From: a virus
Length of the DNA: 64,000 nt
Strand: one strand, 5' to 3'
Virus record (IMG/VR): IMGVR_UViG_3300042389_001478
Location: 1 to 64,000 of that record
Below the pieces are notes generated by a model. That model had not been told where the DNA came from, did not search any database, and saw nothing but the letters and a program-made list of their open reading frames with translations. Position 1 is the stretch's first letter. The number at the start of each line of letters is the position of its first letter. Of this stretch, positions 15,369-44,100 are shown one piece after another. Both the position numbers and the translations under genes were made by a program.

Positions 15369-15370
15369 CA

Positions 15371-15379: not shown

Positions 15380-15423
15380 AGACCAATACTATTATGGTTT
15401 AATTACAATAGAATTGAAATATT

Positions 15424-17619: not shown

Positions 17620-17634
17620 AAAGAGGTTTGAAAA

Positions 17635-19227: not shown

Positions 19228-19228
19228 C

Positions 19229-19678: not shown

Positions 19679-19705
19679 TTAAAAGCTTTAACAAGGGAGA
19701 AAAAA

Positions 19706-20716: not shown

Positions 20717-20745
20717 TTAAAGCCTAATCAATAGTTTATAGAATA

Positions 20746-20774
20746 AGGGCTGGTAGCAATACCAGTCCTTTTCT
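20746..20774 (+). terminator. rho-independent terminator after capsid gene
   Basis: AGGGCTGGTA, loop GCAA, TACCAGTCCT, then TTTTCT. The stem has one G-T pair. It closes the head operon. Confidence 0.85.
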
Positions 20775-20800
20775 ATTTATATACGCTTCTTATCTAGTGT

Positions 20801-20821
20801 AGGTGTATTCCATAGTATAAT
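20801..20821 (+). promoter_or_regulatory. candidate late promoter
   Basis: AGGTGTATTC (20801-20810), then TATAAT at 20816-20821, restarting transcription after the capsid terminator. It matches the GTGTATT motif at 31638 and 37086. Confidence 0.45.
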
Positions 20822-20862
20822 ACTATATATACTGAGCCAATTTAACCCCATGGTCCATAAAT

Positions 20863-21270
20863 ATGGCAGCATCAAAATATGATTTCTCTATAGAGCAGGG
20901 GACCTCATTTAAAATATCACTAATTTATAAGAATAGTGAAGGAAATCCTATTAATCTAACCAATTGGTGTGCTAGACTAATATGGAAGACTAATAATGGA
21001 ACCACCCAAACCTTTTCAACAGATAATCTAGACTATAGTGTGTATAAGTTCATATTAGATGAAGTTGCTGGTAAATTAACTTTACTAATTCCAGCAGATA
21101 CAACTAATAGTTTTAATTTCACTACAGCAAAATACGACTTGGAACTACAATCTCCCGACGATCTATATGATGGAGGGGGAAAATACACTACTAGATTATT
21201 ATTTGGGACTATTAATCTTGTGAAAAGAAATAGTCAATCAAGCATAGCATTGGACTGCAATCATGAGTGA
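20863..21270 (+). CDS. tail/baseplate-associated beta protein, 135 aa
   Basis: Paralogue of 37663-38106: both share the FxIExGTxF start, the I(D/N)xTNWCAR motif and the DLYxGGGK C-terminal section. The beta-sandwich layout resembles N-terminal domains of baseplate upper proteins and other phage virion proteins of the same size; the exact role is unknown. It overlaps the next gene by 8 bases, just as the second copy overlaps the giant adhesin gene. Confidence 0.7.
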   Translation: MAASKYDFSIEQGTSFKISLIYKNSEGNPINLTNWCARLIWKTNNGTTQTFSTDNLDYSVYKFILDEVAGKLTLLIPADTTNSFNFTTAKYDLELQSPDDLYDGGGKYTTRLLFGTINLVKRNSQSSIALDCNHE

Positions 21271-21514
21271 TTTTATTGTAGAAATTATTGATCCAGCTAT
21301 TACTACCGTTACAGTAGAAACTAGCTTTTTGAATAATATAAACAATATTGATATTGAAAGATATGAAACATATGATTTGCAAATTGTAAATACTGAGAAA
21401 ATTTTAGTCAGTGACTTACCAGATAATATATCATTTGACAAAATTAAAAAGCAGGGAATTGATGGGGTTGATTATTATTTAGATCATTATGAGTTTGATT
21501 GTGGTACACCGTAA
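21263..21514 (+). CDS. short adhesin-related protein, 83 aa
   Basis: It starts MSDFIVEIIDPAITTVTVET and ends with YYLDHYEFDCGTP. The opening resembles the first 45 residues of the 4221-aa protein (MSIVRIEEEIQPLKYLVITQ), and it likewise follows a copy of the 135-147-aa beta protein. It may be a remnant of a larger fibre gene whose rest was lost or a fibre-base adaptor. It overlaps its neighbour by 8 bases. Confidence 0.6.
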   Translation: MSDFIVEIIDPAITTVTVETSFLNNINNIDIERYETYDLQIVNTEKILVSDLPDNISFDKIKKQGIDGVDYYLDHYEFDCGTP

Positions 21515-21542
21515 TAAACACTTTTAAAAAGGGATATCAATT

Positions 21543-23805: not shown

Positions 23806-26800
23806 ATGAGCAGCAGCAGAGGCAAATTTTTTATAGTTAATGGCCAAGCTAAAACCAATCCTCCAAAACCACAATCTCCGCCGGTATCAAGTTTACCGGC
23901 AATGACAGTTGGAGCTTGGGGTGATCCTCATATGTATATTACTGTTAGTTCTTTGGATAATAGAAAGAGAACAGTAACGAAAACAATAGCAAAATGGGAT
24001 GATAATAAACCGGGGCCAGTTGGAGATAACGAATTAAGATTACTAGATTTGACAACATCAACACAGATCATAAAGGTTTTTTATACAAATAAGACTTGGA
24101 ACTTAAATGCTCAGGGAGCTAAGGTCATCTCTAATATTAGAGTAGAATTTAATGGAGTTTCAACAACATATAATAATACCGCCAAAGTGACTGCAGGGCC
24201 GATTAGTTTAAATATACTTAAAAATGGCTCAGGCGCTAATACATATTTAACTTTTGAGATGAGTTGGAACACTATTAATAATGTGGTTCAGTTAAAAGGG
24301 GCACTAACCGTTATTCTTAAAAGAATAGCGGCAAACAATGGAGTGCCTTGGAACGGAGGAAGTGGTAGGTCTTGGGATGGCTTTGGAAAAGCTGCAGCTG
24401 CTTATGGTTTAAGTAGAAGTGATTTTGAAACTGGTATAGGCATTCAAAGTCAAAATACTATAGATTGCATAACTGTCACCGGAATGGATCCGTGGGTCGC
24501 CCGCTTCAATGAGGGTTTTCCAGGATTTAATGCGAATGGAACTTATGTCTTAAACGGTACGTCCGGAGGAAAACCTCGCTATACTCGAACAATTAGTTGG
24601 TATTCATCTGTAGATGTGCAGACCACACTAATGATAGCTTATAGTCCAGAAAGTCATGGATGGTACATATCTGAATTAGATTGGGATGGAGAACCGGAAG
24701 GCAGGGCTTTCTCTGGTTCACCGTACTATGCGCCATGGTCATATGCATCCTCGATCCCTCCATTAACCGGATGGTGGTCGGCCGCTAGCTATGGTTATAG
24801 CAACAGTATGTATATTACTTATAATTGTGGTCAAAATAATAACCAGACTACCGAATTAACTTTATCGTCAAATGAGGCAACATTTTTATCAGCTATTGGA
24901 GAAGATTTTATTCAAAATTCTGATATTTTTAATAATGTTACTGACGGCGGAGCAGAAGGAGAAGGAGACGGAGCCCCTGTAGACTTATGGGATGCCTCTA
25001 CTGAAACAGTTAAGGCGGTGCTTGATAATCCTATTGGTTTAGAAGGAGTTGTAGATCAGATACTTAGTTCAGGAACAACGACTACTACTTCAACTACAAC
25101 CACAGCAGAGCCAACTACAACTACAACCACGACAACGGCAGAGCCAACTACTACCACTACGACCACGACGGCCGCCCCGACAACAACCACCACCACCACT
25201 GCGGCGCCGACAGGAGCCCCCGATAATTTTATTTTAAGTGGATTGCCCAACACTAGTGACTTTGATACAAGCTATAATGGATGGAACGGAACATCTTATG
25301 TACAAGTATATCTTAATGGCATGAAATTCTCCAAGCGTCCCGGCGGTGATTACTATTCCAATGGTTTGACGAGCGTGCCGGATGGTCAAGGAGATCTCGG
25401 CCCTTCTACAACTCCTTGCTCATCGTGTTGCAACACCGAGTATCCGCCATCTCTTAATTTTTGCTGGGGTCAAGGAGACTTCAAATTTGAATTGCAAGCT
25501 GATTGGACGGGCAATTTTGTTCAAGGAGTTGGAGGAGGTCCTGGACTTTATTGGGCTTTGACCTATAGTGGCTCAGCACGAGCTTATACTCTGGATAATT
25601 CTTCGGCCGATGCATCAAATCCTCCAACAGTTTTGCCCACTACTGGCTGGAAAATTATGTATTCTAATACTGTGTTAAATCTGGTGTTTACAGCCCCCGG
25701 TGCGCCAACAACCACAACTACAACCACCACTACGACCACAACAACAACCACAGCAGAGCCAACAACTACCACAACCACAGCAGAGCCAACGACCACTACT
25801 ACCACAACAACCACCACAACAACCGCTGCGCCGACAACCACCACAACAACGGCAGCTCCATCAGGAAATACTCTCACTGTAAGCGGTCTTACGGGAGAAC
25901 AGTCTGGAGCTAATGGAGTTTATGTACAAGCGGGAACATATAATGGAAAGCCGTATTATGCGAAGGGCAGTTATGTTCAAGAAACATATGAGCCTTTTGT
26001 GAATGGCGAGTATATTATCATTTGGGGAGCCTTCGGGCCATTGTGGAACTGGTACAACAATGAAACAGGATCTCCTATTAGTTCAAACACCGAATCTACG
26101 GCGACTCCTCCCAAAACAGGAGAACCCGAATTTGGATCTTGGTTTAGTATTGACACCGGTAGCGTGACAATTACAGGCGGTGGCACAACCACTGAGCCTA
26201 CTACAACCACCACTACAACAACGACTGTAGCCCCCACGACCACGACCACTGCCGCTCCATCAGCAAATGGGCTGTCAATCTCTGGTTCAATGGGAGAAGA
26301 CGGAACATTCTGTCCGGTTGCCACTTATAGCGGAAAGCCATTCTACAAGCATACAAGTTTGATGTGGTTCATTTGGCACGATGGCTATGATTGGCTTTAC
26401 GGAGATAGCACTAGCGGTGGCTATAACCCAGCAAATCCCAGTCACGGCGCCTTTGTGGAGAATCTGAGATGGTTGGCTTCTAACTTCAGCAGTAGCTCAA
26501 CTCCACCGCTCACCGGATGGGGTGGTGACTTGAGTGGCGCAACAATAACGCAGACATCTTGTGGTGGTGGAGATCCGACAACAACAACCACTACCACAAC
26601 TACAACGACCACCACCACAACTGCCGCCCCAAGTGGTCCACCTTCTGGATTTGCTGGGGCTGGATATTATCTTAGCACTGAAGGAGCTACTATTAGTGGA
26701 GCCACTACAGACACAAGCTTTAATGGCACATATAGGGTGGTAAAAGAATATGATTCTAATGGAAATGTGGTTGGTTTTGTTGGAAATAGTGGCGGTAGTG

Positions 26801-27039
26801 TTTGGTATACAAAGGTTGTCAATGGAGCTAATGGTTGGAGCAATAGTATTGTCAAACAGTCTTCTGTTTGGGAAATTGGAAGTTTTCTATATTTAAATAC
26901 TGACGTGTCATCAAATGTTGTTCCGACTACTGGCTGGAGAGAATACTGTCCGAATTATGACAACAGTTGTGATCCCGCTACATCCTTAGTCGTTTCCATA
27001 GTTTCTTTTAACGATATAATACCAGACTATATTTTTTAA
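23806..27039 (+). CDS. large adhesin with von Willebrand D-like N-terminus and Thr-linked modules, 1077 aa
   Basis: The N-terminus (GKFFIVNGQAKTNPP) leads to GAWGDPHMYIT at residues 37-46, the WGDPH hallmark of von Willebrand factor D-type domains; the first 215 residues match the start of the next gene. Beyond residue 220 comes a series of about 100-residue modules of one pattern (SG...GTY...GKPxY...W...PPxTGW), at about 24460-24830, 25225-25700, 25873-26185, 26266-26575 and 26640-27020. Thr-only linkers with PTTT or EPTTTT separate modules 2 to 5. This bead-string layout fits a host-binding fibre. The poly-Val frames on the other strand are shadows of the linkers. Confidence 0.8.
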   Translation: MSSSRGKFFIVNGQAKTNPPKPQSPPVSSLPAMTVGAWGDPHMYITVSSLDNRKRTVTKTIAKWDDNKPGPVGDNELRLLDLTTSTQIIKVFYTNKTWNLNAQGAKVISNIRVEFNGVSTTYNNTAKVTAGPISLNILKNGSGANTYLTFEMSWNTINNVVQLKGALTVILKRIAANNGVPWNGGSGRSWDGFGKAAAAYGLSRSDFETGIGIQSQNTIDCITVTGMDPWVARFNEGFPGFNANGTYVLNGTSGGKPRYTRTISWYSSVDVQTTLMIAYSPESHGWYISELDWDGEPEGRAFSGSPYYAPWSYASSIPPLTGWWSAASYGYSNSMYITYNCGQNNNQTTELTLSSNEATFLSAIGEDFIQNSDIFNNVTDGGAEGEGDGAPVDLWDASTETVKAVLDNPIGLEGVVDQILSSGTTTTTSTTTTAEPTTTTTTTTAEPTTTTTTTTAAPTTTTTTTAAPTGAPDNFILSGLPNTSDFDTSYNGWNGTSYVQVYLNGMKFSKRPGGDYYSNGLTSVPDGQGDLGPSTTPCSSCCNTEYPPSLNFCWGQGDFKFELQADWTGNFVQGVGGGPGLYWALTYSGSARAYTLDNSSADASNPPTVLPTTGWKIMYSNTVLNLVFTAPGAPTTTTTTTTTTTTTTTAEPTTTTTTAEPTTTTTTTTTTTTAAPTTTTTTAAPSGNTLTVSGLTGEQSGANGVYVQAGTYNGKPYYAKGSYVQETYEPFVNGEYIIIWGAFGPLWNWYNNETGSPISSNTESTATPPKTGEPEFGSWFSIDTGSVTITGGGTTTEPTTTTTTTTTVAPTTTTTAAPSANGLSISGSMGEDGTFCPVATYSGKPFYKHTSLMWFIWHDGYDWLYGDSTSGGYNPANPSHGAFVENLRWLASNFSSSSTPPLTGWGGDLSGATITQTSCGGGDPTTTTTTTTTTTTTTTAAPSGPPSGFAGAGYYLSTEGATISGATTDTSFNGTYRVVKEYDSNGNVVGFVGNSGGSVWYTKVVNGANGWSNSIVKQSSVWEIGSFLYLNTDVSSNVVPTTGWREYCPNYDNSCDPATSLVVSIVSFNDIIPDYIF

Positions 27040-27077
27040 TGAATTAAATTCTTTATTATTGAAATGAAATACACAAA

Positions 27078-29939
27078 ATGAAAAATGGCAAATTCTTTAT
27101 AGTCAATGGACAAGCTAAAACCAATCCTCCGCAACCACCATCTCCTCCATTATCAAGTTTGCCAGGAATGACGATAGGGGGCTGGGGAGATCCTCATCTT
27201 TATATTACTACTAGTTCTGTAGATTCTAAAAAAAGAGTAAAAACTAAAACTATAGCCCAATGGGGAGATAATAAAGCTGGAGTAGCAGGAAATAACGAAA
27301 TTCAGCTATTAGATCTACAAACATTAACACATAGTATAAAAATTTATTATACGAACAAGGCTTATGGTAGTGCTAAGGTTATTGATAATATAAGAGTAAA
27401 CTATAATGGTGTTTCTACAATATATAATGCTACTACAAAACTAACTCTTGGTCCAGTAACTCTATATATTCTTAAGAAAGGATCGGGAAATAGCTCTTAT
27501 CTAAATTTTGAAATTAGTTGGTCTAATATTAATAATGTAGTTAAATTAGGTGGTGCTATAGTACCCATTCTTAAAAGAGTAGCTGATAATAATGGGGTTT
27601 TATGGAATGGTGGAGATGGATCATCATGGGACGGTTTCGGAAAAGCACTGGCTCCCTATGGTTTGAGCAGAAGCAGTTTTGAAACTGGAATTGGAATTCA
27701 GGCCACAGAAGAAGAATTAGCTCTATCAGAACAGGAAGCTAATTTCTTAGCAGCTGCAGATGAAAACTTTACTCAAAATAATAGTATATTTAATAATTTA
27801 GAAAATCTTGGAGAAAACGGAGAGGGAGATGGTGCTAATATTGGAGATTGGGATCCCGAACATCGTGTGATGGAACCAGTTTATTCTAATGATGATGGAT
27901 TACCACTGGCTGTAGACGTTGCTCTCGGCAATGTAACAACTACCACTCCGATCCCAGAATTATGGGGCAAATGGGAGATAACAGTATATAGATGCGGCCA
28001 AGCAGGCTGGGCTAGGAGAACAACAAATAAAATTTGTACTTGGAGTCACTTTCATGCAACCTCTACAAACGGCAGCGGGCGCAACAACTTAGATGCACAA
28101 AAGCTTATTCCATCAAATGATCCTTTAATTCCTGCGTCTTTTAATCCCCAGTCGTGTTTTTCCTCAGAAGTCAGATGCGGACCCGTAAAACTGGCGCCAG
28201 AGCTAGACTCCAGCCAAGATACAATTGGTCCAAACTATAAATTCTCTGAGAGTTGGACCATAATCGAAGACGGAGCTCCACCGATATATGCAAATACCCA
28301 GTCGATTTACTTGGGGGTTTATCTGAATAGAGATAACACCACCCAAGGATGGACGAACCTATCAGAACCAAGACCCACAGAGTACACTGTTCAACAAAAT
28401 AGCAGATGCGTATGTAGCGTCAATACTTTTAGCGGCTGCACAGAAGGAAATATCCTGGTTGATTGGTGTTCGGCCATAGGGGGAAATGTACAGCAAGGTA
28501 ATTGCTACATGGCATGTTGTGAAGAATCCGAATGCACAGATATAACTGGAAACTATAGCAACAACCCAGACAGCCCTATCTACAGAGCCCCGTGCACAAA
28601 CACAAACTCTTATCCCCAGACACAATGCCAACCGAATCCATGTGGACCCACAACCACCACAACAACGCCAGAGCCAACAACCACCACAACAACGCCAGAG
28701 CCAACAACCACCACAACAACGCCAGAGCCAACAACCACCACAACAACGCCAGAGCCAACAACCACCACTACGACGGCTGCTCCGACAACTACCACAACTC
28801 TGCCTCCAGACGACCCTCTTTGCGTCTGGAACTACGTCTCCGGGATATCTGGTCCGCTTAATTGTGGTTATTATGGCACACAAAACACCGCCCAGAACGC
28901 GACACAATGTGGTCAGAATTGGTGCACCAATTACGCCAGACCGGAGGACGCTCAGTATCTTTGTCAAGAAGGGTGGTCGCTCACCGGCTGCAGAATAACA
29001 GAACCATATCGTTCAGGTGGCGAAAACGCAGAATGGTTTGTTGATGTGTCCGTAAGATGCTGTCCACCAACCACCACAACAACAACAGCATCTCCGACAA
29101 CTACCACAACAACAGCATCTCCGACAACTACCACAACAACAGCATCTCCGACAACTACCACAACAACAGCATCTCCGACAACTACCACAACAACAGCATC
29201 TCCGACAACCACAACACCTAGTCCTGACGCTATTAGCTGTCCAAATGGATCTAGCGATTGCTATTATTATACTAGTCTTTATGCCGGAAATCCAGACTTT
29301 GGAACATTCACAGTTACCAACGCTGGCAGCTATGTTGTAACAGCAGCTTACGGAGAGTCAGAACCAGGAGCAAACGATGGAACTCAAGCTGGTACCTATA
29401 GTATGAATGGGACTTATGTGTGGGGTGGCTATGGATCATGGGATAAGCAGGGGGTTGGTGGAGGAGGATCAAGTAATAATATGTTCATAATAACTCCTAC
29501 TAATGAGGGATATGGTGGAGATAAATTAACTATTTATGGTGGCGGTCCAGCAGGATTTGCCTCTTGGCATTTTACAGGAACTACCACCGAATATAATAGT
29601 TGTTCTCCATGGACTTTTTCGGGCTGGACGAAACTAACAATGCCAAATGGAATAACAGTAAATGGGTCCGCACCTACAGTAGTAAAAACCGAATCAACAA
29701 ATGACAGATCTCTTTGTATTAATGCTGGCGGAAGATACCAGCCGGGTGGTATAAATTATCCCGCAGAGTGTACTTTTTATGATGTTCTTCCTGAAGATGA
29801 ATTTTATGAATTTCAACCTCCCCATGCTTCTCCCGGAGGAAGTTGGACATATATTTACAATGGTTTCTATCAAGGAACTTGTGTAAATGGAATATGTCAA
29901 ACTTTCACATACAATCCTACCAACTGTCAATTTAGCTAG
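27078..29939 (+). CDS. large adhesin with von Willebrand D-like N-terminus, paralogue, 953 aa
   Basis: The first 215 residues are closely similar to those of 23806-27039 (MKNGKFFIVNGQAKTNPPQ, GGWGDPHLYIT, SSWDGFGKALAPYGLSRSSF), but the C-terminal parts are unrelated, showing a common base with swapped tips. A Cys-rich segment follows (residues 300-520), then two Thr linkers built from perfect 27-base repeats (28651-28776, TTTTTTPEP units; 29097-29204, TTTTTTASP units). Between and after them are Cys-rich domains (WNYVSGISGPLNCGYYG; CYYYTSLYAGNPDFG). It is a candidate receptor-binding fibre. Confidence 0.78.
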   Translation: MKNGKFFIVNGQAKTNPPQPPSPPLSSLPGMTIGGWGDPHLYITTSSVDSKKRVKTKTIAQWGDNKAGVAGNNEIQLLDLQTLTHSIKIYYTNKAYGSAKVIDNIRVNYNGVSTIYNATTKLTLGPVTLYILKKGSGNSSYLNFEISWSNINNVVKLGGAIVPILKRVADNNGVLWNGGDGSSWDGFGKALAPYGLSRSSFETGIGIQATEEELALSEQEANFLAAADENFTQNNSIFNNLENLGENGEGDGANIGDWDPEHRVMEPVYSNDDGLPLAVDVALGNVTTTTPIPELWGKWEITVYRCGQAGWARRTTNKICTWSHFHATSTNGSGRNNLDAQKLIPSNDPLIPASFNPQSCFSSEVRCGPVKLAPELDSSQDTIGPNYKFSESWTIIEDGAPPIYANTQSIYLGVYLNRDNTTQGWTNLSEPRPTEYTVQQNSRCVCSVNTFSGCTEGNILVDWCSAIGGNVQQGNCYMACCEESECTDITGNYSNNPDSPIYRAPCTNTNSYPQTQCQPNPCGPTTTTTTPEPTTTTTTPEPTTTTTTPEPTTTTTTPEPTTTTTTAAPTTTTTLPPDDPLCVWNYVSGISGPLNCGYYGTQNTAQNATQCGQNWCTNYARPEDAQYLCQEGWSLTGCRITEPYRSGGENAEWFVDVSVRCCPPTTTTTTASPTTTTTTASPTTTTTTASPTTTTTTASPTTTTTTASPTTTTPSPDAISCPNGSSDCYYYTSLYAGNPDFGTFTVTNAGSYVVTAAYGESEPGANDGTQAGTYSMNGTYVWGGYGSWDKQGVGGGGSSNNMFIITPTNEGYGGDKLTIYGGGPAGFASWHFTGTTTEYNSCSPWTFSGWTKLTMPNGITVNGSAPTVVKTESTNDRSLCINAGGRYQPGGINYPAECTFYDVLPEDEFYEFQPPHASPGGSWTYIYNGFYQGTCVNGICQTFTYNPTNCQFS
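28651..28776. repeat. 27-base tandem repeat, 4 full copies plus partial
   Basis: Unit CAACCACCACAACAACGCCA plus GAGCCAA, four identical copies from 28651 to 28758 and a partial fifth, in frame and coding for TTTTTTPEP. Identity at DNA level suggests recent expansion. Confidence 0.9.
29097..29204. repeat. 27-base tandem repeat, 4 full copies
   Basis: Unit ACAACTACCACAACAACAGC plus ATCTCCG, four identical copies in frame, coding for TTTTTTASP, with partial units on both sides. It is a different array from the one at 28651, in the same gene. Confidence 0.9.
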
Positions 29940-30752: not shown

Positions 30753-31613
30753 ATGAATAAATTACTTACAATTGGCATGAGCACTTATGACGATTTTGAT
30801 GGAGTTTATTTTACCATTCAAGCTCTCAGAATGTATCATTCAATATGTGATACTAATGACATAGAAATAATAGTATTAGATAATAATCCAGAAGGAGTTC
30901 ACGGACAAGAACTTCAAAAATTTATTGCCGGATGGACAAATGGTAATGGAAAATATGTTCCTATAAAAGATAAGTCTTCTTCTTTTAACAAATATAAGGT
31001 AGTAGACCACGCCTCTGGACAATATGTTCTTATTTTAGATTGTCATGTATTATTAGCTAATAATGCAATAGAAACACTATTAAATTACTATTCTTCTCAT
31101 CCTGATTGTAAAGACTTAATTCAGGGGCCTCTGCTATATGATGACTTAAGAAACCTCTCAACAGAATTCAAAGATGAATGGAGAGGGGACATGTATGGCA
31201 TATGGCACAACAGTCCAGAAGCTTACTCAAAGGGGGAGCCTTTTGAAATAAAATTACAGGGTATGGGATTATGTTCATTTGAAAAGAAAAATTGGCCCGG
31301 TATTTGTCCTTACTTTAAAGGGTTTGGGGGAGAAGAAGGATACATAGCGGAAAAGTTTAGACGAAATGGCGGTAAAAATATTTGTATTCCTTCATTAAAG
31401 TGGGTTCATCGCTTTGGTCGCCCCAACGGAGTTAAATATCCATTAATATTAGAAGATAGAATATGGAATTATTTTGTAGGATGGCTAGAAATCACAAGAG
31501 ATCCAAGTCACCATATGATAGTTGATACATACAATCATTTTAAGGGTCGAATTCCTCAAGATAGTTTGGATAATATATTGGAAAGAGCCAAAAATAAGAT
31601 CATTAATAGCTAA
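30753..31613 (+). CDS. family 2-like (GT-A) glycosyltransferase
   Basis: Transfers a sugar from a nucleotide donor. The N-terminal half is a GT-A Rossmann-like fold: LTIGMSTYDDFDGVYFTIQA at the start, then IEIIVLDNNPEG and YVLILDCHVLL, the last being the DxD-like metal site (D99, C100, H101: an unusual DCH). The C-terminal half has FKGFGGEEGYIAEKFRRNGG and KWVHRFGRP, which shape the acceptor site, as in enzymes acting on surface or capsid glycans. It is the third gene of its cluster. Together with the gmd gene it suggests glycosylation of the phage particle or host. Confidence 0.85.
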   Translation: MNKLLTIGMSTYDDFDGVYFTIQALRMYHSICDTNDIEIIVLDNNPEGVHGQELQKFIAGWTNGNGKYVPIKDKSSSFNKYKVVDHASGQYVLILDCHVLLANNAIETLLNYYSSHPDCKDLIQGPLLYDDLRNLSTEFKDEWRGDMYGIWHNSPEAYSKGEPFEIKLQGMGLCSFEKKNWPGICPYFKGFGGEEGYIAEKFRRNGGKNICIPSLKWVHRFGRPNGVKYPLILEDRIWNYFVGWLEITRDPSHHMIVDTYNHFKGRIPQDSLDNILERAKNKIINS

Positions 31614-31637
31614 ATAGATCAATACTATCTTGCTCGT

Positions 31638-31647
31638 GGGTGTATTA
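31638..31647 (+). promoter_or_regulatory. candidate late promoter motif
   Basis: GGGTGTATTA, identical at all 10 bases to 37086-37095, 50 bases before the fibre gene start, followed by ACTATTATAC. Confidence 0.45.
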
Positions 31648-31696
31648 ATTACTATTATACCGTATAGTATTCATAAAAATAGGACTATATCATAAG

Positions 31697-33694
31697 ATGG
31701 CCGTAAATGATCTTATTACATTTCGTAAAGGAACAGCCTCAGCATGGACTTCAGCCAATCCAGTATTAGCTAGCGGCGAGCCCGGTTATGATTTAACCAA
31801 TAGCATTCTCAAAATAGGGGATGGAGTTTCAAATTGGGTAGCTCTTAGTGGAATTGGATCAACTAGTCTTAATAATTCATCATCCTCTTCCTCTGTGGGT
31901 GTTAGAGGAATTATAAGCACCACAGGGACATTGACCAGTTTTGCCGTATCAGGAGGTTACCCCGTTGGATATTTAGATCTATTCCAAGATGGAATTAAAT
32001 TAGTATCAGACCTCGACTTTTCTGCAACAGATGGATCTAATGTTACTCTTAGTAACAGTGTCCCTTCTGGTACAGTTTTAGAGTATTTAACAATGGCTTC
32101 TGGAGTTTCTTCTGGAGGAGGTTCTTTATCTGGAAGTGTTACGATTCCGGGAAGTGATCCGTATTGGGATAGCGTTTTGTTGCTATTGCGCGGCGACGGC
32201 AACCTCACGGACTCGTCCAAGTACGGTCGCACACTGACGGCCCACGGTAACGCAGCGGCGAACGCGGCGGGCAAGTATGGCACCAACTCTATTGCGTTGG
32301 ATGGGACGGGCGACTACCTGTCGTTGTCAAGCAGTGACTTTTCGTGGGGAACGAGCGACTGGACGGCTGAAGCGTGGGTATGGCTGACTGCCTACGGCAC
32401 CTACGGTTCGTACTTCTCGACGTACTTCAGCAATGGATCTCCGTTCGGCGTGTCTGTTGGCGTGACGAACACCGGCTATCCGTTTCTGATGCACCCGGGC
32501 GGCGCGAACATCGAAGGATCCTCGCTGCTCCCGACCGGGCAATGGGTGCATCTTGCCGCCGTTCGCGCAAGCGGCGTGGTGACCTACTACGTTAACGGCA
32601 CGTCTGTCGGGAGCGTGACGGCTGCTGACTCGCACGGACAGTCCAATGTGGTTGTAGGCCGCACCTATGTGGAGTTGAACAACAATTATTGGAACGGCCG
32701 CATCGCGGAACTTCGCGTCACGCAGGCGGCTCGCTATACTGCCAACTTCACGCCTCCAACTGCTGCTCTGCCAACGACAATCTTTCAGGCATCACCTCAG
32801 ATCCTCCCCGTCACCATTACTGGCTCTAGCGGCAATTCTTCTGGTCTTTCGTGGTCAAGTGTCCCAGCATCAGCATCAGCAAGCGGTACTACTGGTCAAA
32901 TAGCATATGATAGTAATTATTTTTATGTAGCTACTGCTAGTAATACTTGGAAAAGATCTATATTATCATCATGGTTTTCTCTTAATAGTATAAGCAGCTT
33001 AAATATGTGGTTAGACGCTTCGGTATCGAGTAGCTTACGAAGTACTACTTCCGGGGGCTCTATTGTTGGCATCAATGGGTCTGTGGCTAGATGGGAAGAT
33101 CAAAGCGGTAATGGAAATCATTTTACCCAATCAGATTCTCAATATTGTCCTATATATGATGGAACAGGACTGGTATTAGCAGAGAATACAGGAAGGTATT
33201 TATTAGCGTCTTATCCAATAACAGAAAATAATTTTTCTTTTTTTGCTGCTATTGTACTTAATGGACGAAATAATTCGCGTCATACATATGGTCGAATTTT
33301 TAGTGGAGCCCCAACTACTAGCGGAGGAGCAGATTATGCCGACAATAACGGTCTTTTATTTGCAGATTTTCCTTCCCCCAGCTTGCAAGCATATAGAAAC
33401 AGCTCAACCATAGCGTCCACCACAGCCCTAAGCATAGGAACACGAGTAGTTGTTGGTTTTACAGTAAATAGCGGGTCTGTTACTATCTATAGAAATAAAT
33501 CATATACGTCTGGCAGTACCAGCTCTACTCCTGTGAATATACAAACAGTTAGGCTTGGTAATAATGCCGCCCCGAATACCGACTCATCACTTAATGGGGC
33601 TTACTATGAAGTTGTGATGTTTAATAGCGCTTTGGATAATACTACATCTCAATCTGTTATTGATTATTTAATGAGTAAATGGAGTATAGCTTAA
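31697..33694 (+). CDS. tail fibre with Mtd-like start and inserted LamG domain, 665 aa
   Basis: Residues 5-50 are the fibre-attachment domain (DLITFRKGTASAWTSANP, GEPGYDLTNSILKIGDG). Residues 160-355 form a concanavalin A-like LamG domain (SSKYGRTLTAHGNA, GDYLSLSSSDFSWGTSDW, GQWVHLAAVRASGVVTYYVN). A second beta domain follows (MWLDASVSSSLRST, then DQSGNGNHFTQS), another LamG-like fold near residues 440-660. The DNA for the first LamG (about 32160-32790) is GC-rich, unlike both flanks, so it looks imported from another genome. Start 31697 lies 50 bases after a late-promoter motif. Confidence 0.85.
   Translation: MAVNDLITFRKGTASAWTSANPVLASGEPGYDLTNSILKIGDGVSNWVALSGIGSTSLNNSSSSSSVGVRGIISTTGTLTSFAVSGGYPVGYLDLFQDGIKLVSDLDFSATDGSNVTLSNSVPSGTVLEYLTMASGVSSGGGSLSGSVTIPGSDPYWDSVLLLLRGDGNLTDSSKYGRTLTAHGNAAANAAGKYGTNSIALDGTGDYLSLSSSDFSWGTSDWTAEAWVWLTAYGTYGSYFSTYFSNGSPFGVSVGVTNTGYPFLMHPGGANIEGSSLLPTGQWVHLAAVRASGVVTYYVNGTSVGSVTAADSHGQSNVVVGRTYVELNNNYWNGRIAELRVTQAARYTANFTPPTAALPTTIFQASPQILPVTITGSSGNSSGLSWSSVPASASASGTTGQIAYDSNYFYVATASNTWKRSILSSWFSLNSISSLNMWLDASVSSSLRSTTSGGSIVGINGSVARWEDQSGNGNHFTQSDSQYCPIYDGTGLVLAENTGRYLLASYPITENNFSFFAAIVLNGRNNSRHTYGRIFSGAPTTSGGADYADNNGLLFADFPSPSLQAYRNSSTIASTTALSIGTRVVVGFTVNSGSVTIYRNKSYTSGSTSSTPVNIQTVRLGNNAAPNTDSSLNGAYYEVVMFNSALDNTTSQSVIDYLMSKWSIA
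32160..32790 (+). other. GC-rich LamG-coding segment of foreign composition
   Basis: Counted directly: line 32221-32280 has 41 of 60 G+C and 32521-32580 has 42 of 60, against 21 of 60 for 33121-33180. Codons such as GCG, GGC and CGC dominate. Both ends fall near the LamG domain boundaries. Confidence 0.8.
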
Positions 33695-33726
33695 TATTAT
33701 TTATTAATAATAAAAGATAAAACAAA

Positions 33727-34197
33727 ATGACAAAAGCATATAATAATTCACTACTAGCACGAAACATAAGCATCAGTGGTACCAATACTTCTGTTAGTGG
33801 GTTATTGTCTGCAACTAGTGGTAATTTTATTGATTCTTTGCAAGTTAATAATATTAATGTTAGCGTTAGTGGACATACTCATACATCATCTAATATTAGT
33901 GATTTTAACTCTTCAGTTAGTGGATTATTATCAGTAACTAATATCTCTGCTGGTTCTGGGATTAGTGTTAGCTCTAGTTCTGGTAATTATACAGTTAATA
34001 GTACTACTATATTAAGTTATGCTGCTACTAGTGGTTTTCCAGCTTCTGGAGTCTCAACATCATATTATTTAGCTAGTGATACTAGTAGATTATATCAATG
34101 GACAGGATCATATTATGCTGAAATAGGACCACCGATTGCAGGTGTTAATAATGCTCAAAATGCTGCTAATCTTTATCTATGGAACAACTTTAAATAG
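33727..34197 (+). CDS. short tail-fibre segment protein, 156 aa
   Basis: Not a full fibre: a short repeat-rich protein with NNSLLARNISISGTNTSVSG, a VSGHTHTSSNISDFNSSVSG segment shared with 21543-23741, and a C-terminal PIAGVNNAQNAANLYLWNNF. It may be a fibre tip or an assembly accessory. It follows the preceding fibre gene at 32 bases and precedes 34209 by 11. Confidence 0.65.
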   Translation: MTKAYNNSLLARNISISGTNTSVSGLLSATSGNFIDSLQVNNINVSVSGHTHTSSNISDFNSSVSGLLSVTNISAGSGISVSSSSGNYTVNSTTILSYAATSGFPASGVSTSYYLASDTSRLYQWTGSYYAEIGPPIAGVNNAQNAANLYLWNNFK

Positions 34198-34208
34198 GAG
34201 AATAAATT

Positions 34209-34592
34209 ATGGCCATCAGTCCCTCGTTTGCCGCAACACCAAGAATAGGAAATGTTAGTATAGCAACTGCTGAAGGTTCTTATACATCCCCAACAAATTT
34301 TGGCACTCTAATTACCGGAGCATCTACTGGAACACGAATAGCAGAAGTTATAGTAAAAAATGCTGCTACTAGTGCTGCTGCTATAGTACGTTTATTTTTA
34401 CATGATGGATCTACTTATTATCTTTTTGATGAATATACTATAGCCGCAGCTACAGGATCAAGTACTGTTCAGCAAACGCGAGTAAGCACACAATATAACA
34501 ATCTTATATTGCCAAACTCTTCTTGGACTCTAAGAGTAACAACATCAGTAGCTCAAACAACCCATGTTACTGCTTTAGGTGCTGATCTATGA
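34209..34592 (+). CDS. hypothetical fibre-associated beta protein, 127 aa
   Basis: Not recognised. Beta-rich with SFAATPRIGNVSIATAEGSY, GTRIAEVIVKNAATSAAAIV, TYYLFDEYTIAAATGSST and SWTLRVTTSVAQTTHVTALG, the strand layout of a small jelly-roll or immunoglobulin-like domain. Its stop overlaps the start of the glycine-rich protein by 4 bases. A role as fibre adaptor is inferred from position. Confidence 0.6.
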   Translation: MAISPSFAATPRIGNVSIATAEGSYTSPTNFGTLITGASTGTRIAEVIVKNAATSAAAIVRLFLHDGSTYYLFDEYTIAAATGSSTVQQTRVSTQYNNLILPNSSWTLRVTTSVAQTTHVTALGADL

Positions 34593-35473
34593 ATAATGGT
34601 ATTTATGGTTTTGGATCATCTTTAGTATCTTCTAGTCCATATGGGCCTTATGGAATTTCTGGTTCTTCATCTGTTATTGGAACAATAAGGTTATTAGTTG
34701 TTGGAGGTGGAGGAGCAGGAGGTTCCGCAACAGGCGGGGCGAGGACTGGGCCGGGAGGTGGTGGTGGTGGGACGATTGAGTCTTCTGTAGGTGTTGTTCT
34801 CGGTATCACATATACAGTACAAATTGGTGCTGGAGGAGCTATTAATAATTTTGGAAACTTGTCGAGATTTGGAGATTTTACTGCTGCTGGAGGTGGTTTC
34901 GGAACAACCACTGGTGGTGTTTACTATTCGTTAGCAACTGGTGCTGGTGGATTAGGAGGACGCTTTGCGTCAAATATTCCTTCGCAGGGTGCTGCGGGAG
35001 GTACCGGTGTTACTACGGCTGGTTCTGTGATTATTAGTGGAGGAGGAGGAGGAGCATCTCAAGGTGGAGATGCTACTACAACCATTGCCGGTTCTGGAGG
35101 TGCAGGTAGAACAGTTTCAGTATTAGCTGCCCAATCTTTTTTTGGAGGAGGAGGAGGTGCCGGTGCAAGTACAACTTCCGGCTCATTAGCTTCTGGTGGC
35201 GTTGGAGGAGCGGGCGGTGGAGGCAATGGTGCAACAGATTTGGTCGGATCCACAGCTGGATCACCAAATACCGGAGGTGGCGGAGGTGGTGGACGCGCTT
35301 CAGCATCGTCAAGCGCTGGAAGTTCTGGAGGGTCTGGTGTTGTGATTGTTCGTTGGAATTCTTCAACAATGAAAATTAATATAGGAGTAGGATTAACATT
35401 TACAACAACCACAGTAGGATCTGATACAATAGTTACCTTTACAGCAGGAACCGGAACAGTATCATGGAGTTAA
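34589..35473 (+). CDS. glycine-rich adhesin, 294 aa
   Basis: An N-terminal cap (MNNGIYGFGSSLVSSSPYG) is followed by about 220 residues of glycine-rich repeats (LLVVGGGGAGGSATGGARTG, PGGGGGGTIESSVGVVLG, SVIISGGGGGASQGGDATTT, GGGGGASAGSS). It ends in a short beta domain (NIGVGLTFTTTTVGSDTIVT) shared with the next gene. Glycine-rich domains of this type form the tips of phage fibre adhesins and are common in T4-like gp38 proteins. Variants of the tip are expected to change receptor choice. It overlaps the previous gene by 4 bases. Confidence 0.8.
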   Translation: MNNGIYGFGSSLVSSSPYGPYGISGSSSVIGTIRLLVVGGGGAGGSATGGARTGPGGGGGGTIESSVGVVLGITYTVQIGAGGAINNFGNLSRFGDFTAAGGGFGTTTGGVYYSLATGAGGLGGRFASNIPSQGAAGGTGVTTAGSVIISGGGGGASQGGDATTTIAGSGGAGRTVSVLAAQSFFGGGGGAGASTTSGSLASGGVGGAGGGGNGATDLVGSTAGSPNTGGGGGGGRASASSSAGSSGGSGVVIVRWNSSTMKINIGVGLTFTTTTVGSDTIVTFTAGTGTVSWS

Positions 35474-35476
35474 TTT

Positions 35477-36394
35477 ATGCCATTTAATTTTCCAAATAAT
35501 CCAACAGTAAATCAATATTCTCGTCAAAATAATAGAGTATACCGATGGAATGGATATTCGTGGGATTTATTTGCTGATAATTTTTTACTTCGTGTGTTGT
35601 TGGTTGGTGGTGGAGCGGCTGGTGTTACTGCACAGGGAAGTGGCGCACGCCCTGGACCCGGAGGTGGTGGTGGCGGCGTGGTGGATCAGACCCTTGGCGT
35701 TCTACTTAACACATCATACTCCGTGACGATTGCTGCCGGTGGCTCTGTTGGAGCATTCCCCGGAAATAATAGTTTTTTTGCTGGTATCACTGCCGCAGGC
35801 GGTGGAACGGGTTCGACATCTAGCGTTGGCTTCTCGCTTGCTACAGGTGCCGGATATTTGTTCCTGACCAGCAACAGCAACGGAGGCACTCGCAATGCGT
35901 CCTACATCACGACGCAAGGATTTTCCGGTGGCCTTGGCCAATCAAACGGAAGGGCTGGTGGTGGTGGCGGTGGTTCTGGTGGACAAGGGGGTGACGCCAC
36001 TTCAACCGTTAGCGGTTCGGGCGGTATTGGTAGGTCTAGCGACATCACTGGATCGGCTGTTCTATACGGTCCCGGCGGTGGCTCTGGAGGCTACGTTGGA
36101 ACATCTTCTGCTGGTTCTGGTGGTAGCACTGGTGGAGGCAACGGGTCGCAGGATGTTGCGTCTGCGGGATCGGCAGGTGCGGCTAATACCGGAGGGGGAG
36201 GTGGTGGTGGAGCAAGTAATGGTACTACTTTCTCGGTTGGAGGAGCAGGGGGTAGTGGCGTTGTGATATTGCGATTTGATGCCATATTAAACATAACTCT
36301 TTCAGCGGGACTATCATACACTACAGCTTCTTTTGGAGCAGATACAATTGTTACAATTACAGCCGGTACAGGAACGGTTACATTTACAGTTTAA
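35477..36394 (+). CDS. glycine-rich adhesin, paralogue, 305 aa
   Basis: Close relative of the preceding gene: after a different N-terminus (MPFNFPNNPTVNQYSRQNNR) the Gly-rich repeats and the C-terminal GLSYTTASFGADTIVTITAG match. The middle (35640-36260) has GC-rich codons (43 of 60 G+C in 35641-35700) while both ends are AT-rich, again suggesting an exchanged receptor-binding centre. It probably works at a fibre tip. Confidence 0.8.
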   Translation: MPFNFPNNPTVNQYSRQNNRVYRWNGYSWDLFADNFLLRVLLVGGGAAGVTAQGSGARPGPGGGGGGVVDQTLGVLLNTSYSVTIAAGGSVGAFPGNNSFFAGITAAGGGTGSTSSVGFSLATGAGYLFLTSNSNGGTRNASYITTQGFSGGLGQSNGRAGGGGGGSGGQGGDATSTVSGSGGIGRSSDITGSAVLYGPGGGSGGYVGTSSAGSGGSTGGGNGSQDVASAGSAGAANTGGGGGGGASNGTTFSVGGAGGSGVVILRFDAILNITLSAGLSYTTASFGADTIVTITAGTGTVTFTV

Positions 36395-36408
36395 ATAGGA
36401 GAATAATT

Positions 36409-36723
36409 ATGGCTCATTATGCATTTTTAGACGAAAACAATATTGTTACTGAAGTTATAGTTGGTAAGAATGAAAACGAAGATGGTATTAATTGGGAAAA
36501 ACATTATGGAGAATTTAGAGGAAAAACTTGTAAACGAACTTCATATAATACCTCTGGTGGAGTTCACAACGGAGGTGGAATCCCATACCGAAAAAATTAT
36601 GCTGGAATAGGTTATGTTTTTAGAGAAGACATAAATGTCCCAGAAGGAGCTTTTGTTCCACCTTGTCCCGGTGACGAATATGTTTTAGATGAGACTACTG
36701 GATTATGGGTAATATTAAGTTAG
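36409..36723 (+). CDS. small tail-fibre accessory protein, 104 aa
   Basis: It opens AHYAFLDENNIVTEVIVGKN, a start typical of small fibre-associated or assembly proteins found beside phage fibres, then GINWEKHYGEFRGKTCKRTS and YAGIGYVFREDINVPEGAFV. The family is known from many phages but its function is not established. It follows the glycine-rich gene by 14 bases with AATAGGAGAAT upstream. Confidence 0.65.
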   Translation: MAHYAFLDENNIVTEVIVGKNENEDGINWEKHYGEFRGKTCKRTSYNTSGGVHNGGGIPYRKNYAGIGYVFREDINVPEGAFVPPCPGDEYVLDETTGLWVILS

Positions 36724-36759
36724 CCCTTTAATTTTAAACGAATCAATTATTTTATAAAG

Positions 36760-37662: not shown

Positions 37663-38106
37663 ATGCCAGCAGCTGACTATAATTTTACTATAGAAAAAGG
37701 CACAGCATTTGTTCTTGCATTTGAATATAGAGACGATAATAATATTCCAATTGACATTACCAATTGGTGTGCTAGAATAAGATGGATAGAAGATCAAAGT
37801 CCAGAACCAGTAATTAGAACATTCACCACTAATAATAGAACATCAGAATACGAATTCACCATAGACCCCAAAGTTGGCAAAATTGTATTAAGAATACCAG
37901 CATCACAAACAGTTGCCTATTCCTTTGGATCTGCTAGATACGATTTTGAGCTACAAGAACCAAATGATTTATATAGTGGTGGTGGTAAAAAAATATTTCG
38001 AATTCTTCAAGGAAGCGTATCATTACTTGCAAGAAATGTACCGGGAGACGATGCATTTGGTTGCGACACCAATGTACAAAATGATTGTGGAACATGTAGC
38101 TCATGA
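37663..38106 (+). CDS. tail/baseplate-associated beta protein, 147 aa
   Basis: Paralogue of 20863-21270: FTIEKGTAFVLAFEYRDD, ITNWCARIRW and NDLYSGGGKK are shared. Beta-sandwich layout, with a Cys-rich end (FGCDTNVQNDCGTCSS). Its last bases overlap the start of the 4221-residue adhesin gene by 4 (ATGA), as the first copy overlaps its own partner. The protein may form the base on which the fibre stands. Confidence 0.7.
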   Translation: MPAADYNFTIEKGTAFVLAFEYRDDNNIPIDITNWCARIRWIEDQSPEPVIRTFTTNNRTSEYEFTIDPKVGKIVLRIPASQTVAYSFGSARYDFELQEPNDLYSGGGKKIFRILQGSVSLLARNVPGDDAFGCDTNVQNDCGTCSS

Positions 38107-41100
38107 GCATAGTACGAATAGAAGAAGAAATACAGCCATTAAAATATCTGGTTATAACACAAGAAAGAGACCCTGAAAGTGTTGTTTCTACCAATGTAAT
38201 TATATCTGATACTAGAGTAAATAGAGTCAATTTAATTTCTATAGAAAAAGGACCCCAAGGAGATACTGGACCACGAGGGGCTCAAGGACCAGCAGGAAAA
38301 GACGGAGCCTCTTTTGAAGTTTTGCCAATTAATAGTGGAGGAACCAATAACACTTCATTTAGTAGTGGTAATATAATATATTATGACGGACACAAGCTAT
38401 CTAGTTCTAACTATTCATTTCAAGATCTACTAAACAACTCTAACACTAATGCTGTTACTGGAGTTTTTGCCGGATCAGGGCTATACAGAGAACTAGCAAA
38501 TAATACCGCTACGCTAGGAATTAATGCTGGAGATGGACTTTCTATTAATGAAGATAACCAAATAATAGTAGATGATACCATTGTTCGTAAAGTCGAGCTG
38601 AGTATTGGAAATATTAGTGGTGTTGTTCCGATAGCTAAAGGAGGCACTAATAATCAAACCTTTAGTAGTAATAGGCTATTATATTATGATGGTTTTAAAA
38701 TAACATCATTTCCATTGGCTACTGGAAGAATACTATTAAGCGGAACAACAATAGACATAATTGCAGGATCAGGATTAACCGGAGGAGGATCTTTATCTTT
38801 GCCCAGCGGATCTGTGGTTCTAAATATTGGTGGATCATCAGACATTCTAGTAGAAAATAACGCCATCTCATTATCAACTACTGGAACACCAGGAACATAT
38901 TCTAGAATTACCACAGATGATAAAGGCAGAGTAGTCTCAGGAAGCAACCTAACAAGATCTGATATTATTAGTATTCTTGGATATACTCCTTGGCATCCAG
39001 GTAATGATGGACAAGACTCTGGATTAGACGCTGATTTGCTTGATGGTAGAGATAGCTCATATTTTACTAATGCAGCCAACTTAACTGGTCTTATAGATTC
39101 AAATATTATTCCATCGTCAGTCGAGCCCGGAGTTTATACAAAGCTTTATATTAATAACAAGGGTATGGTAACTCTTGGAGATAATATGAATTATGGAGAT
39201 GTTGTTTATTCTCTAGGATATCGTCCCGTAAGCACAGCCGGAGATACCATTAATGGACCAATAGAAATTAATGGAGATGCCAGTCTAAATGGAGATAATC
39301 TAACCATCAGAGACAATCTCCCTACGATAGGGACCAACTCTGCGTCAATACTTCCTAGCGACCCTAGGGGTTTTAGTTTTTTATATGGTGGATACACATC
39401 CAAAACTGGAATACTTGCATTTTTTCCAGCAGATAGAGAACTGAGACTCGTTACTAATATTAGTAGTGGCGGAGACTTGAGCGGAGGTGAAAATAGTTTT
39501 ATAGGAGATGTCGATGGCGGAGATCAAAATGCTTTGTATATTACTAATAATGTTAGTGGAGATATTAATGTTGTTCTATTAAGAAGTAAAGCTGATAGTC
39601 TTTACGTTAGCAGAACCGATACTCAGGTCATCAGTGGAGTCAAAACATTTGTTAATGGGGTGCAGGTTAGAGATCAGGTTGTGATTATACCGTCCGTTAA
39701 TCAATCCAACCCTCCTCTTAATGTTGGAAATAACTCCAGGATGGTAGATAGTCTCAATGTGGATTTATTACATGGACACAATGCAGATTATTTCAATAAC
39801 GCTAGCAACATGACCGGACTATTTACTTATACTAAAGTCCAATTTGATAATTTAGATGGGACACCAGACTATATTCCTCGTTTTGATAATAGAACCTCTA
39901 ACCCTAGTAGAACAATTAGTAATTCTATCATAAGACAAAAGTCGGACAACACGGCTATTATAATAGAAAATAATGCAAACTTATACGTTGGCTCATCAAA
40001 TAGTGGCTCGTTTTTATCTGACAGTTCTACGGCTGTTGGGCGTAATAATAAAATATATGAAGATAATAGTTTAGCTGTTGGCTATGGTAATGCTATTTCT
40101 GGACAAAATAGCGTAGCGCTAAATTATGGATCTAAGACTTTATCAGATACTTCTATCGCGGCCGGTAAATATGGAGAGACCTGGAATGAAAATCAATTAA
40201 GCTTCGGTGCTTTTTCTGAGTTTAATAATAGTCAAACCATTACTCACGGACAGTATTCAACTATTGCGCTAGGATTAAATAGTACAGAAACTAATGGAGC
40301 ATGGGCCACAATGTCTCCTAATGTCATTTTGCCCAAAGATAAAACTATCGCTTATTCATTAGAAGTATTAATGAATAAAGCAGCAGGTACCGGCGCGGCA
40401 TTTGTTGTATTTGATAGTGGGATTATCAAGAATACCACCTTCAGAAGTCCATCCAACCCCTCTCAGACCATCAATGTCACATCTTCTCTTAAAAATACCA
40501 CCAAAAAAGAAATTTATAACGATTCTCAACAAAGAAGACACTATTATCACTACAGACTAGCAAATATAACCATCATTCAAAATCTTGAAGTAACTGCGTC
40601 TCCTGTTAAAAATATAAGCGGAACTAGCGGTATTGCACAAAATATTAATTCAGAATATAAATATATACCAAAATTTATTAGCAGCATATCTAGCTATTCA
40701 AAGTCAAATGATGGCCATACTGTATTAAATATTCCTAAGCCCATATTTAGTGGATCATTTATACAAAATGAAAATGACTATAGAATCAAAATTAAATCAT
40801 ATGATCATAATATGGTCGCCGGATGTATGGCTAATCTGATGTTTTCATCAGGACTAGCCCGCAACCCAATTTCTAAAAAATATCAGGTTTTAGATATTAT
40901 TGATAAAGATAACTTTCGTGTTAGTGAAAATTTTGCTAGTGGATATCTAACAGATAACGAAATAACTATAGATCCACAGAGTATTTCATTGGTTGATGAG
41001 GCTAATTCTATAGTAATCTCTGGTGGATATCTATATACTAATTCACCAGATATGTATAATATGCCTATTAATGCTATGACCGTACTACATACTGGTATGA

Positions 41101-44100
41101 AAGTACGATTTAGGCCATATGAGTCCCTATATCCAAGCATCAACGAACAAACAGGGATTATTGTCGCATTAACAAATAGTAGCGTTACTTTTAATGTTCC
41201 TTTTACTGGGGTCTTTAATTCTTCTAGCGTCAACACCCCGTCCGTATTAAGGTTTAACTCATACACAGACCACACCTTGAGCTCTTGCTCAAAATTATAT
41301 CTAAGTATTGAAGGATATGGACAGCAGTCAGTCTTTAGAACCTCTGGATCATACCCAACAACATACTGTGGGCAGCCTACTATAGCTTTTAGAATTTCTG
41401 GGGTTCCACAAAACTTTAGTGGCAATCCCGTCAGAGTTTCTCCAGCATCACTAAATTCAGGACTAGTAAATCTACACAACAAAAGAAGTTTTGATGGATC
41501 GTATTCTAAATTAGCCACATCATTTAAAAAGTATGAAGGCATCTATACTCAATATCCATCTAATGATGGGACTAGCGTTTTAAGTATCTTTAACAAGAAC
41601 CTAGAGCACATAACCTTACCTTCTATGCCTTTTTCATATTCTTTGGTATGCGGCTATGGAGACACCGACAACAGCTTTTTTCGTGTTAGTGGGGATTATT
41701 TAGTTTCTAAGCAGGCATTTAATTTTGAAGAGCAAGCAACCCGCACTGTTAGAATTAGAACCACGGACATGTCTGGACAATTTTTAGAAAAATCTTTTAG
41801 AATCAATATATTAAATATGGATGAAAATCCACTATTAATAAATCCTATACAGGATCAATATTTAACAGTCGATGAATTATGGACTTTTTCAGTTCCGACA
41901 GACACTTTTAGCGACGAGGTTTTTTCGACATCTAAGTCTTATTCTGCTCTTTTGAGCGATAATTCTACGCTACCATCATGGCTTAGTTTTAACCCCAGCA
42001 CAAGAAGCTTTAGTGGAACTCCTTCATTATCTGATACTGGTGTCTTGTCTTTAAAAGTGAATGCTCTTTACTATGGCGGTCTATCAGCGCAGGATACTTT
42101 TAATATACATATTAATGAGCCAGGTTTAAACACCTTTGACTACAGCATTCAGTCTGTTGATGATGATAGTCCTCTAAAGATCACAAATCTTAATTTATCA
42201 CAAATTACAATACCAGAAAACATGCCTTCAGGATCAATCATAGGCAAACTAGACACAGCCGGAGGATATGCTCCCCATCTAATATTTCAAACGGCTTCGA
42301 ATAGTTTTAGCGGAGTACTGATCAACAATAGCAATATAATAAGCGAGTGCGCTTCATTTAGTGTGAATTATCCTACAACCACCTTGCTGGGTAGGCTGGA
42401 TACTATCTATACTGGAATGCCGCTGTCCGCATCGAATGGTCTGTCATCAGCCACAGTTACGGGAATTTTAGATTCTATAGTAGCAATCAATGGATACACA
42501 AGTAGTGGGTCAAATCGAGTTTGTGTTCCTAGCATGACATTTCCAGACCTACAATATATTTCCGGCATTCGGTTTGTTTCTTCTCTTTCTGGATGGAATA
42601 ATCAAGCAAGAGTCGCTAATACTGGGCAGAATTTTATCACATTTGATAGAACAGCTTTTAGCGGAAACACGGACTCTGCTTCAAATAAATTTAGCGGCGT
42701 ACTCATTAATAATAGCAACATAATAAGTGAGTGTGCTTCAGTACTTGGTAATCTAAATACTCTGGTTGTCGGAATGCCATTATCGACAAATAGCGACCTA
42801 TCATCAGCCGCAGTTACGGGAATTTTAGATAATATAGTAGAAATTGACGGATATGTAAGTAGTGGATCTTATTCCATTTCGGGTATAACTCCCCCAGATT
42901 TGCAATATATTTCCGGCGTTAGATTTGTATCTTCTCTTCCTGAATGGAATAACGAGGCTAGGGTTGTTAATACCGGAGAGAATTCTCTTATATTTGACGT
43001 TGCCTTTACTGGGACCGGAATTGATACGGCTATTACTGTAAATAATATTGGTAAGCGAATTCTTTTAGACACAAGATATCAAGGACAATCACTATCTGGA
43101 CTAATAACTTATACAGCTATTACTATAAATAATATTGGGAAGCGAATTCTTTTGGATACAACATATCAAGGAACATCACGATCCGGAATAATAACTTATA
43201 CAGCTGAACTTCCGAATGATGCTGAGTACTATCCAAGTGGATTACAATATTTCTCTCGGTCATCAATAGAAGGATGGTGCCCAACAACCATTTCAAAGTC
43301 TTATATTAAAGGATTTCAATCCGAAACCCCTCAATATGCACAATCAACTGGTCACTATGCTACCGGCATCGTATCCTTCTATACTAGTGCTGGATACAAC
43401 AGAATAACTATTAATACGAATGAATATACTAATATCGAACCCGATGAAGATAGTATCTTTATTAATTATTTAGATATAAATCTTGGAGACATTCCAACAG
43501 ATAAGCCATATTCTAGAATTAGTGGATATGACAATCCGTTGTCTTTTATGACACATAGCTTATCGTGGTATCCAGACTCTGGAGTGTTGGGAACAGGTAG
43601 ATTAATATTAAACTTAGATCAAAATCATGGCTATAAAATATTAGATCCCAAAATTTTAAATCAGATCCCCGTACGGTTCGATTCTTGCATTAATAACAAC
43701 AGCAATCGTAGACCCAAAGATAATTTATTTGATATTTTAGCTATTACTGGAAATAAAATAACCATAAAAGATAGTCAAAACTATTTACTAAAAGAAAATG
43801 GCAGACCCGACTATTTTGAACAGCCAATAAAAGCACAATATTCTACAAACGGTTTTCATTTTAGTGGTACAATAGTTAGTGGATCTAATTTATTATATGA
43901 TTGTAGTAGTAATAAAATTTATGATTTACAAAAAAATATGATTTTAGGGTCTTCTTCTTTTAGGGACTACCCACACGTAGTAAGGTTTGATTCTATAGTA
44001 TCGACCGGAACTACCTTCACCGCCACCCTGTATGGTGGACAAAGTATTTTAACGACGACCCCCGGACAACCCATATACATTAATCAGAAGCTATACTCTT

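Follow-up and report, generated by a model that had tools for sequence, protein, structure and literature searches.

We propose that a GC-rich island in the fibre gene of an uncultured phage encodes a LamG/ConA-like lectin that was recently gained by horizontal recombination from a pool of phages of about 60% GC, and that the lectin occupies one slot of a modular fibre; we regard this explanation as very probable. The window analyzed here, a stretch of 64,000 bases with an average GC content of 38.2%, belongs to IMG/VR record IMGVR_UViG_3300042389_001478 (192,497 bases), and the recipient is a large AT-rich (38% GC) uncultured tailed phage that infects bacteria. The fibre gene (31697..33694, defined by translation, Pfam and a module map; this and all features of the gene given below lie on the plus strand) encodes 665 residues. 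As an earlier note on this DNA had claimed, the reading frame runs uninterrupted across the island, and the island coincides with one LamG-type domain. Because the codon usage of the island has not yet drifted toward that of the recipient, the acquisition would be recent.

How is the fibre protein organized? An Mtd_N-type N-terminus is followed by the LamG slot, a GLSW linker module and a C-terminal ConA-like region. The Mtd_N domain (31721..31831; Pfam and module map) likely anchors the fibre protein to the virion, judging from its family, and the N-terminal ~146 residues of the fibre have among their top matches only AT-rich (~40% GC) phages, at identities of up to 91%. The slot holds the domain discussed below, whose Laminin_G_3/ConA-like jelly-roll core spans 32300..32734 (Pfam, AlphaFold2 and Foldseek). 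Near the C-terminus, a second, weak LamG/ConA-like region (33296..33637) has native codon composition and a profile score of 25.5 bits, below the 27.6 cut-off.

The composition of the island is foreign to the gene that carries it. The maximum-likelihood GC3 segment, 32159-32833, has a GC3 of 0.71 versus 0.23 in the remaining fibre gene, and an alternative end at 32752 is nearly as likely; GC3 segmentation, alignment to contig L002 and recoding delimit the imported tract to 32187..32833 (GC 60%, GC3 0.72). GC averages 59-60% in the island versus 30-42% in the flanks, and the shift is abrupt at both ends. The contrast had been described as near 70% against about 35%; the island and its place were right, but the magnitude was overstated, as ~70% is reached in only a few 60-base lines (maximum 43/60, mostly 32-40). 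Amino-acid content does not explain the high GC, because the same peptide recoded with the window's own codon usage in 5000 draws gives a GC3 of only 0.263 ± 0.029 (maximum 0.367), compared with the observed 0.716 (z = 15.7), and amino-acid bias is thereby ruled out. The highest GC3 over 60 codons in the island is 0.80, and the runner-up among the tested forward ORFs of the window is 0.57. Elsewhere in the window, tandem ACA/ACC codon repeats encode Thr-rich tracts at 25076-29216 and 50322-50440; these repeats are the probable cause of the remaining moderate rises in GC and of the strong GC skew near 25-29 kb.

The assignment of the domain to the LamG family is supported by both profile and fold. 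Pfam Laminin_G_3 (PF13385) matches residues 202-346 over profile positions 1-145 of 151 (E 3.1e-23), and the whole-protein score of 83 bits is well above the curated cut-off of 27.6. The AlphaFold2 model of the domain (pLDDT 88.6, pTM 0.88) is nearly all beta and adopts a jelly-roll. In a Foldseek search of the PDB, the best match was domain 4 of the arabinanase AbnA (5hon; TM 0.68, E 3.7e-9), which has the same jelly-roll fold but, at 22% identity, neither a ligand nor binding residues that can be transferred to the phage domain. The closest viral structures are the LamG domains of cyanophage and Pseudomonas phage tail proteins. Likewise, the tail LamG/ConA-like domains of Synechococcus phage S-SKS1 and Pseudomonas phage SCUT-S3 share the Pfam family and the predicted fold; isolate domains of this kind reach ~35% amino acid identity at best, whereas the kin at 74-89% are all found on uncultured contigs. 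Family, fold and location suggest that the domain likely binds a surface carbohydrate and contributes to adsorption or receptor recognition, and its import would likely have changed receptor binding.

What is the source of the domain? Searching with the domain alone, the check recommended in the earlier note, revealed GC-rich phage donors: 13 IMG/VR loci with 75-89% amino acid identity, to which an alignment query added L184/L185 at 74%. All IMG/VR relatives of at least 74% identity sit on loci of 59-64% GC, and in them the domain has a GC of 0.57-0.62 and a GC3 of 0.64-0.74, so the high-GC composition is native there. Below this set, the next-best lectins are only ~41% identical or less. In the domain tree, the window sequence is nested among five rows from GC-rich phages with supports of 100/96 and 100/99. 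No DNA match to the domain was found in isolate phages, and the isolate-phage proteins are ~35% identical or lower among the best matches listed. A bacterial donor was considered and rejected: 84,980 species genomes yielded one confirmed match, at 29%, in a Verrucomicrobia MAG, and thus the sampled donors are phages. A peptide-pattern search of IMG/VR, which is independent of codon choice, detected no close relative carrying the domain in AT-rich codons. The proposal of a recent domain transfer is therefore borne out by the foreign GC3, the GC-rich relatives and the near-identical lineage described below; the two observations that had been named as counting against it were both sought, and neither AT-coded close relatives nor a gradual change of composition was found.

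The GC-rich relatives offer two further observations. In L008 (613-2265), a GC-rich phage fibre carries two tandem LamG cassettes, and an SLSGSVTIP linker again precedes the second, as would be the case if the linker marked the edge of a unit that can be duplicated. In L195, L196, L200, L214 and L227, a GC-poorer LamG domain (GC3 0.39-0.49) sits on loci of 54-61% GC, a contrast that suggests exchange in the opposite direction too.

The junctions of the island are clean and fall in segments that recur in other fibre genes. The left junction, at 32150-32187, falls in the lectin's first strand, downstream of an AT-rich linker. To the left of 32187, identity to L002 is ~70%. The linker GSLSGSVTIP (32120..32149), in AT-rich codons, aligns with the AT-rich loci L054 and L046 and not with the GC-rich donors (21/30), and the crossover interval that follows, GSDPYWDSVLLLL (32150..32186), combines a donor-like peptide with recipient-like codons (26/37 in the alignment to L002). 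Because GSDPYWDSVLLLL is a donor-type peptide in AT-type codons, we place the crossover either within the first strand or immediately ahead of it, and infer that a lectin with the same start was probably present in the recipient beforehand. The right junction, at ~32826-32843, is located in a second shared linker. Beyond it, alignment and the module map define the right linker module GLSWSSVP...GQIAYDSNYFYVATASNTWKR in AT codons (32843..32962); this AT-coded GLSWSSVP...NTWKR module is common to the AT-rich L054, L059 and L068 and the GC-rich L005 and L184. Junctions had been expected near 32150 and 32790; the swap starts inside the first strand and not at the domain edge.

Relatives show the same slot empty or differently filled. 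In L059, window positions 32119 and 32837 correspond to the adjacent bases 5519 and 5520, such that precisely the 717-bp (239-codon) cassette at 32120..32836 is absent in frame. In L054, a different lectin with a slot GC3 of 0.33 lies between the same linkers, and L048/L049 and L050-L053 hold other modules in the slot.

Within the domain, one stretch is nearly identical to sampled contigs. At 32187..32415, the window matches L002, L003 and L004 at 228 of 229 nucleotides, with an exact run of 202 bp (32214-32415); the three contigs are mutually identical over the 3.7 kb compared and represent one sampled lineage. To the right of 32415, identity to L002 drops to ~78% (200/256). Comparison with other alleles locates the switch. 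Over 32187-32380, the window and L002 are identical at 193 of 194 positions and L005 is ~79% identical to both; over 32419-32674, L002, L005 and L014 are identical at 255-256 of 256 positions and the window is ~78% identical to all three. Over part of the domain, the donor pool is a mosaic. The switch point falls in a 38-bp stretch (32381..32418) that is common to all alleles, being identical or nearly so in the window, L002, L005 and L014. The window is equally distant from L005 before and after the switch, which is most simply explained if L002 is the recombinant, and the in-domain crossover probably belongs to the L002 lineage. If so, the window carries one coherent allele, and its direct donor is unsampled. 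The latter also follows from the best match beyond 32416, which is only ~78%: IMG/VR contains no contig of high identity over the whole island, and the nearest sampled contigs, L002-L004, are probably not the direct donor.

Could the island be an artefact of assembly? A cluster of reads from a GC-rich phage wrongly joined into an AT-rich contig would be compatible with the metagenomic origin of the record, with the presence of neither junction pattern (42 and 48 bp) in any other IMG/VR record, and with a stretch almost identical to the contig of another phage. However, such an error requires two joins, each preserving the frame and each placed in a conserved part of a linker or strand; no sampled contig exceeds ~80% identity to the second half of the island; and similar GC-rich modules occupy the same fibre position in L046/L047, L048/L049 and L050-L052, from more than one metagenome. 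We consider misassembly highly improbable. We give even less credence to the idea that the domain is old and native to this phage lineage, its high GC3 being kept by selection on codon usage or on RNA or DNA structure. GC-rich LamG alleles are indeed present in many phages, but the near-identity to another phage extends to nearly all third positions, in relatives of the N-terminus the slot is empty or occupied by other modules, the L054 lectin is not GC-rich at third positions in the same place, and no close AT-coded copy was found in IMG/VR.

The manner in which the lectin entered the fibre is less sharply decided. Insertion de novo into a fibre whose slot held no lectin, as opposed to replacement of an older AT-coded lectin, would agree with the slot of L059, which is empty at precisely the same place. 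We nevertheless judge it unlikely, since the cassette opens with 67 AT-coded bases (32120-32186) that encode GSLSGSVTIPGSDPYWDSVLLLL, which suggests an earlier AT-coded lectin of the same type whose start was kept, and since AT-richer modules accompany the same linker in L054 and L046. Replacement is also the more likely because the crossovers are probably in segments that both fibre genes share.

By what route might a recent gain from GC-rich phages have occurred? Most likely, an AT-rich and a GC-rich phage would have met in one coinfected cell, and homology in their shared segments would have driven the exchange. The left crossover probably fell in a segment common to both fibre genes, the lectin start DPYWDSVLLLL, and the right crossover probably in the common GSSG...SGLSWSSVP linker. 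The slot, whose position between the two conserved linkers is constant, would hold an interchangeable carbohydrate-binding domain. The record encodes a RecA-family protein (125109-125918), and the single-strand annealing recombinases RecT, ERF and Rad52 were not found in its 192 kb, so the identity of the recombination enzyme is uncertain. Two other mechanisms are not supported. For a diversity-generating retroelement of the Mtd-like type, no reverse transcriptase was detected: the 192-kb record, possibly only part of a genome, has no RVT_1 match. For an invertible fibre switch of the Gin/Cin type, no serine invertase was detected, as the record has no Resolvase family match. Within 31600-34300, the stretch scanned for a template/variable repeat pair, there are no direct repeats of at least 16 bp, and the only inverted repeat near the fibre gene is one 16-bp pair of 81%. 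More broadly, we tentatively suggest, as a somewhat doubtful extension, that unrelated phages draw lectin and FN3/Gly-rich cassettes from a common pool, in which the conserved linkers [SA]LSGSVTIP on the left and LPVTITGSSG...GLSWSSVP on the right would act as the recombination anchors of one socket. A shared socket, if true, would imply that phages of very different GC frequently coinfect a shared host.

Exchange is not confined to the lectin slot. The N-terminal relatives L046-L058 are phage loci of ~38-42% GC whose distal modules vary from none to another lectin, FN3 or Gly-rich, and in 5 of 21 such fibre ORFs the distal half itself contains a GC3 island of at least 0.6. Modules in L046, L048, L050 and the L069 locus (G012) are 78-88% identical over ~1.0-1.2 kb to the GC-rich contig G001/L003. 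G001 has a GC of 55% over the 60 kb read and encodes its own replication genes, and its protein matches to the 64-kb window are limited to tail, fibre and accessory ORFs. A close relative of the recipient, G012, has a terminase of 97% identity and is 88.9% identical over a 12.2-kb core, yet differs from the window across most of 21.8-36.4 kb. The core of G005 is only ~74% identical, yet some stretches of its fibre region reach 86-93%. Because core and fibre identities disagree in both G012 and G005, we consider the fibre region an exchange hotspot.

Several additional observations concern the same region. GC-rich distal modules are also held by the AT-rich phage fibre ORFs L046, L048, L050, L056 and L065. 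Window positions 35325-36738 are 96.4% identical to L048/L049 (G005). Two small genes, 34209-34592 and 36409-36723, have 76% and 80% protein identity (127 and 84 residues, respectively) to G001, with GC3 values of 0.14 and 0.17 here versus 0.53 and 0.65 in G001; they are possibly older exchanges that have since adapted in composition.

Smug et al. 2023 (PMC10684548) document recent domain mosaicism in phage receptor-binding proteins across distant taxa, and report tail fibres and spikes as the sole location of recent mosaicism that crosses families or lifestyles. Our case resembles those in that a high-identity domain is located in otherwise unrelated tail proteins with different N-terminal parts. 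It differs in that both phages belong to uncultured groups ~20 points of GC apart and in that the direction, the junctions, the empty slot and the in-domain crossover are directly readable. Similarly, the unrelated Alteromonas phages A5, V22 and P24 share genes for host recognition, which have been ascribed to horizontal transfer during co-infection of a host (PMC10579305). There too host-recognition modules were exchanged between unrelated phages, but those transfers are old and involve whole fibre and chaperone genes, whereas here a lectin domain smaller than a gene retains a recent composition contrast. The island is thus a new, well-resolved and unusually legible example of the known shuffling of receptor-binding protein domains and not a new kind of event. 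The island connects two uncultured phage groups that differ greatly in GC, which suggests that they meet in the same cells, and the lectin link between them is a testable route to a shared host.

Finally, we note several features of the recipient and its relatives. No isolate-phage match was found for the recipient's 530-residue protein or for the L013 protein; the recipient terminase has only distant isolate-phage matches, and the G001 DNA polymerase matches at ~27% at most. The protein encoded at 17635-19227, of unassigned function, has more than 500 IMG/VR relatives and no isolate-phage match, and marks a large group of uncultured phages. The 6855-base IMG/VR contig L104 matches window positions 15214-22068 at 100% identity along its entire length and ends where the fibre region starts; the recipient phage may therefore occur in another sample. 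A single ORF of 4221 residues (38103-50768) lies among the tail genes and contains an Ig-like He_PIG domain near residues 1240-1340, and a subtilase-family protease gene (7620-9227, minus strand; Peptidase_S8, E 5e-48) precedes the structural genes on the opposite strand.
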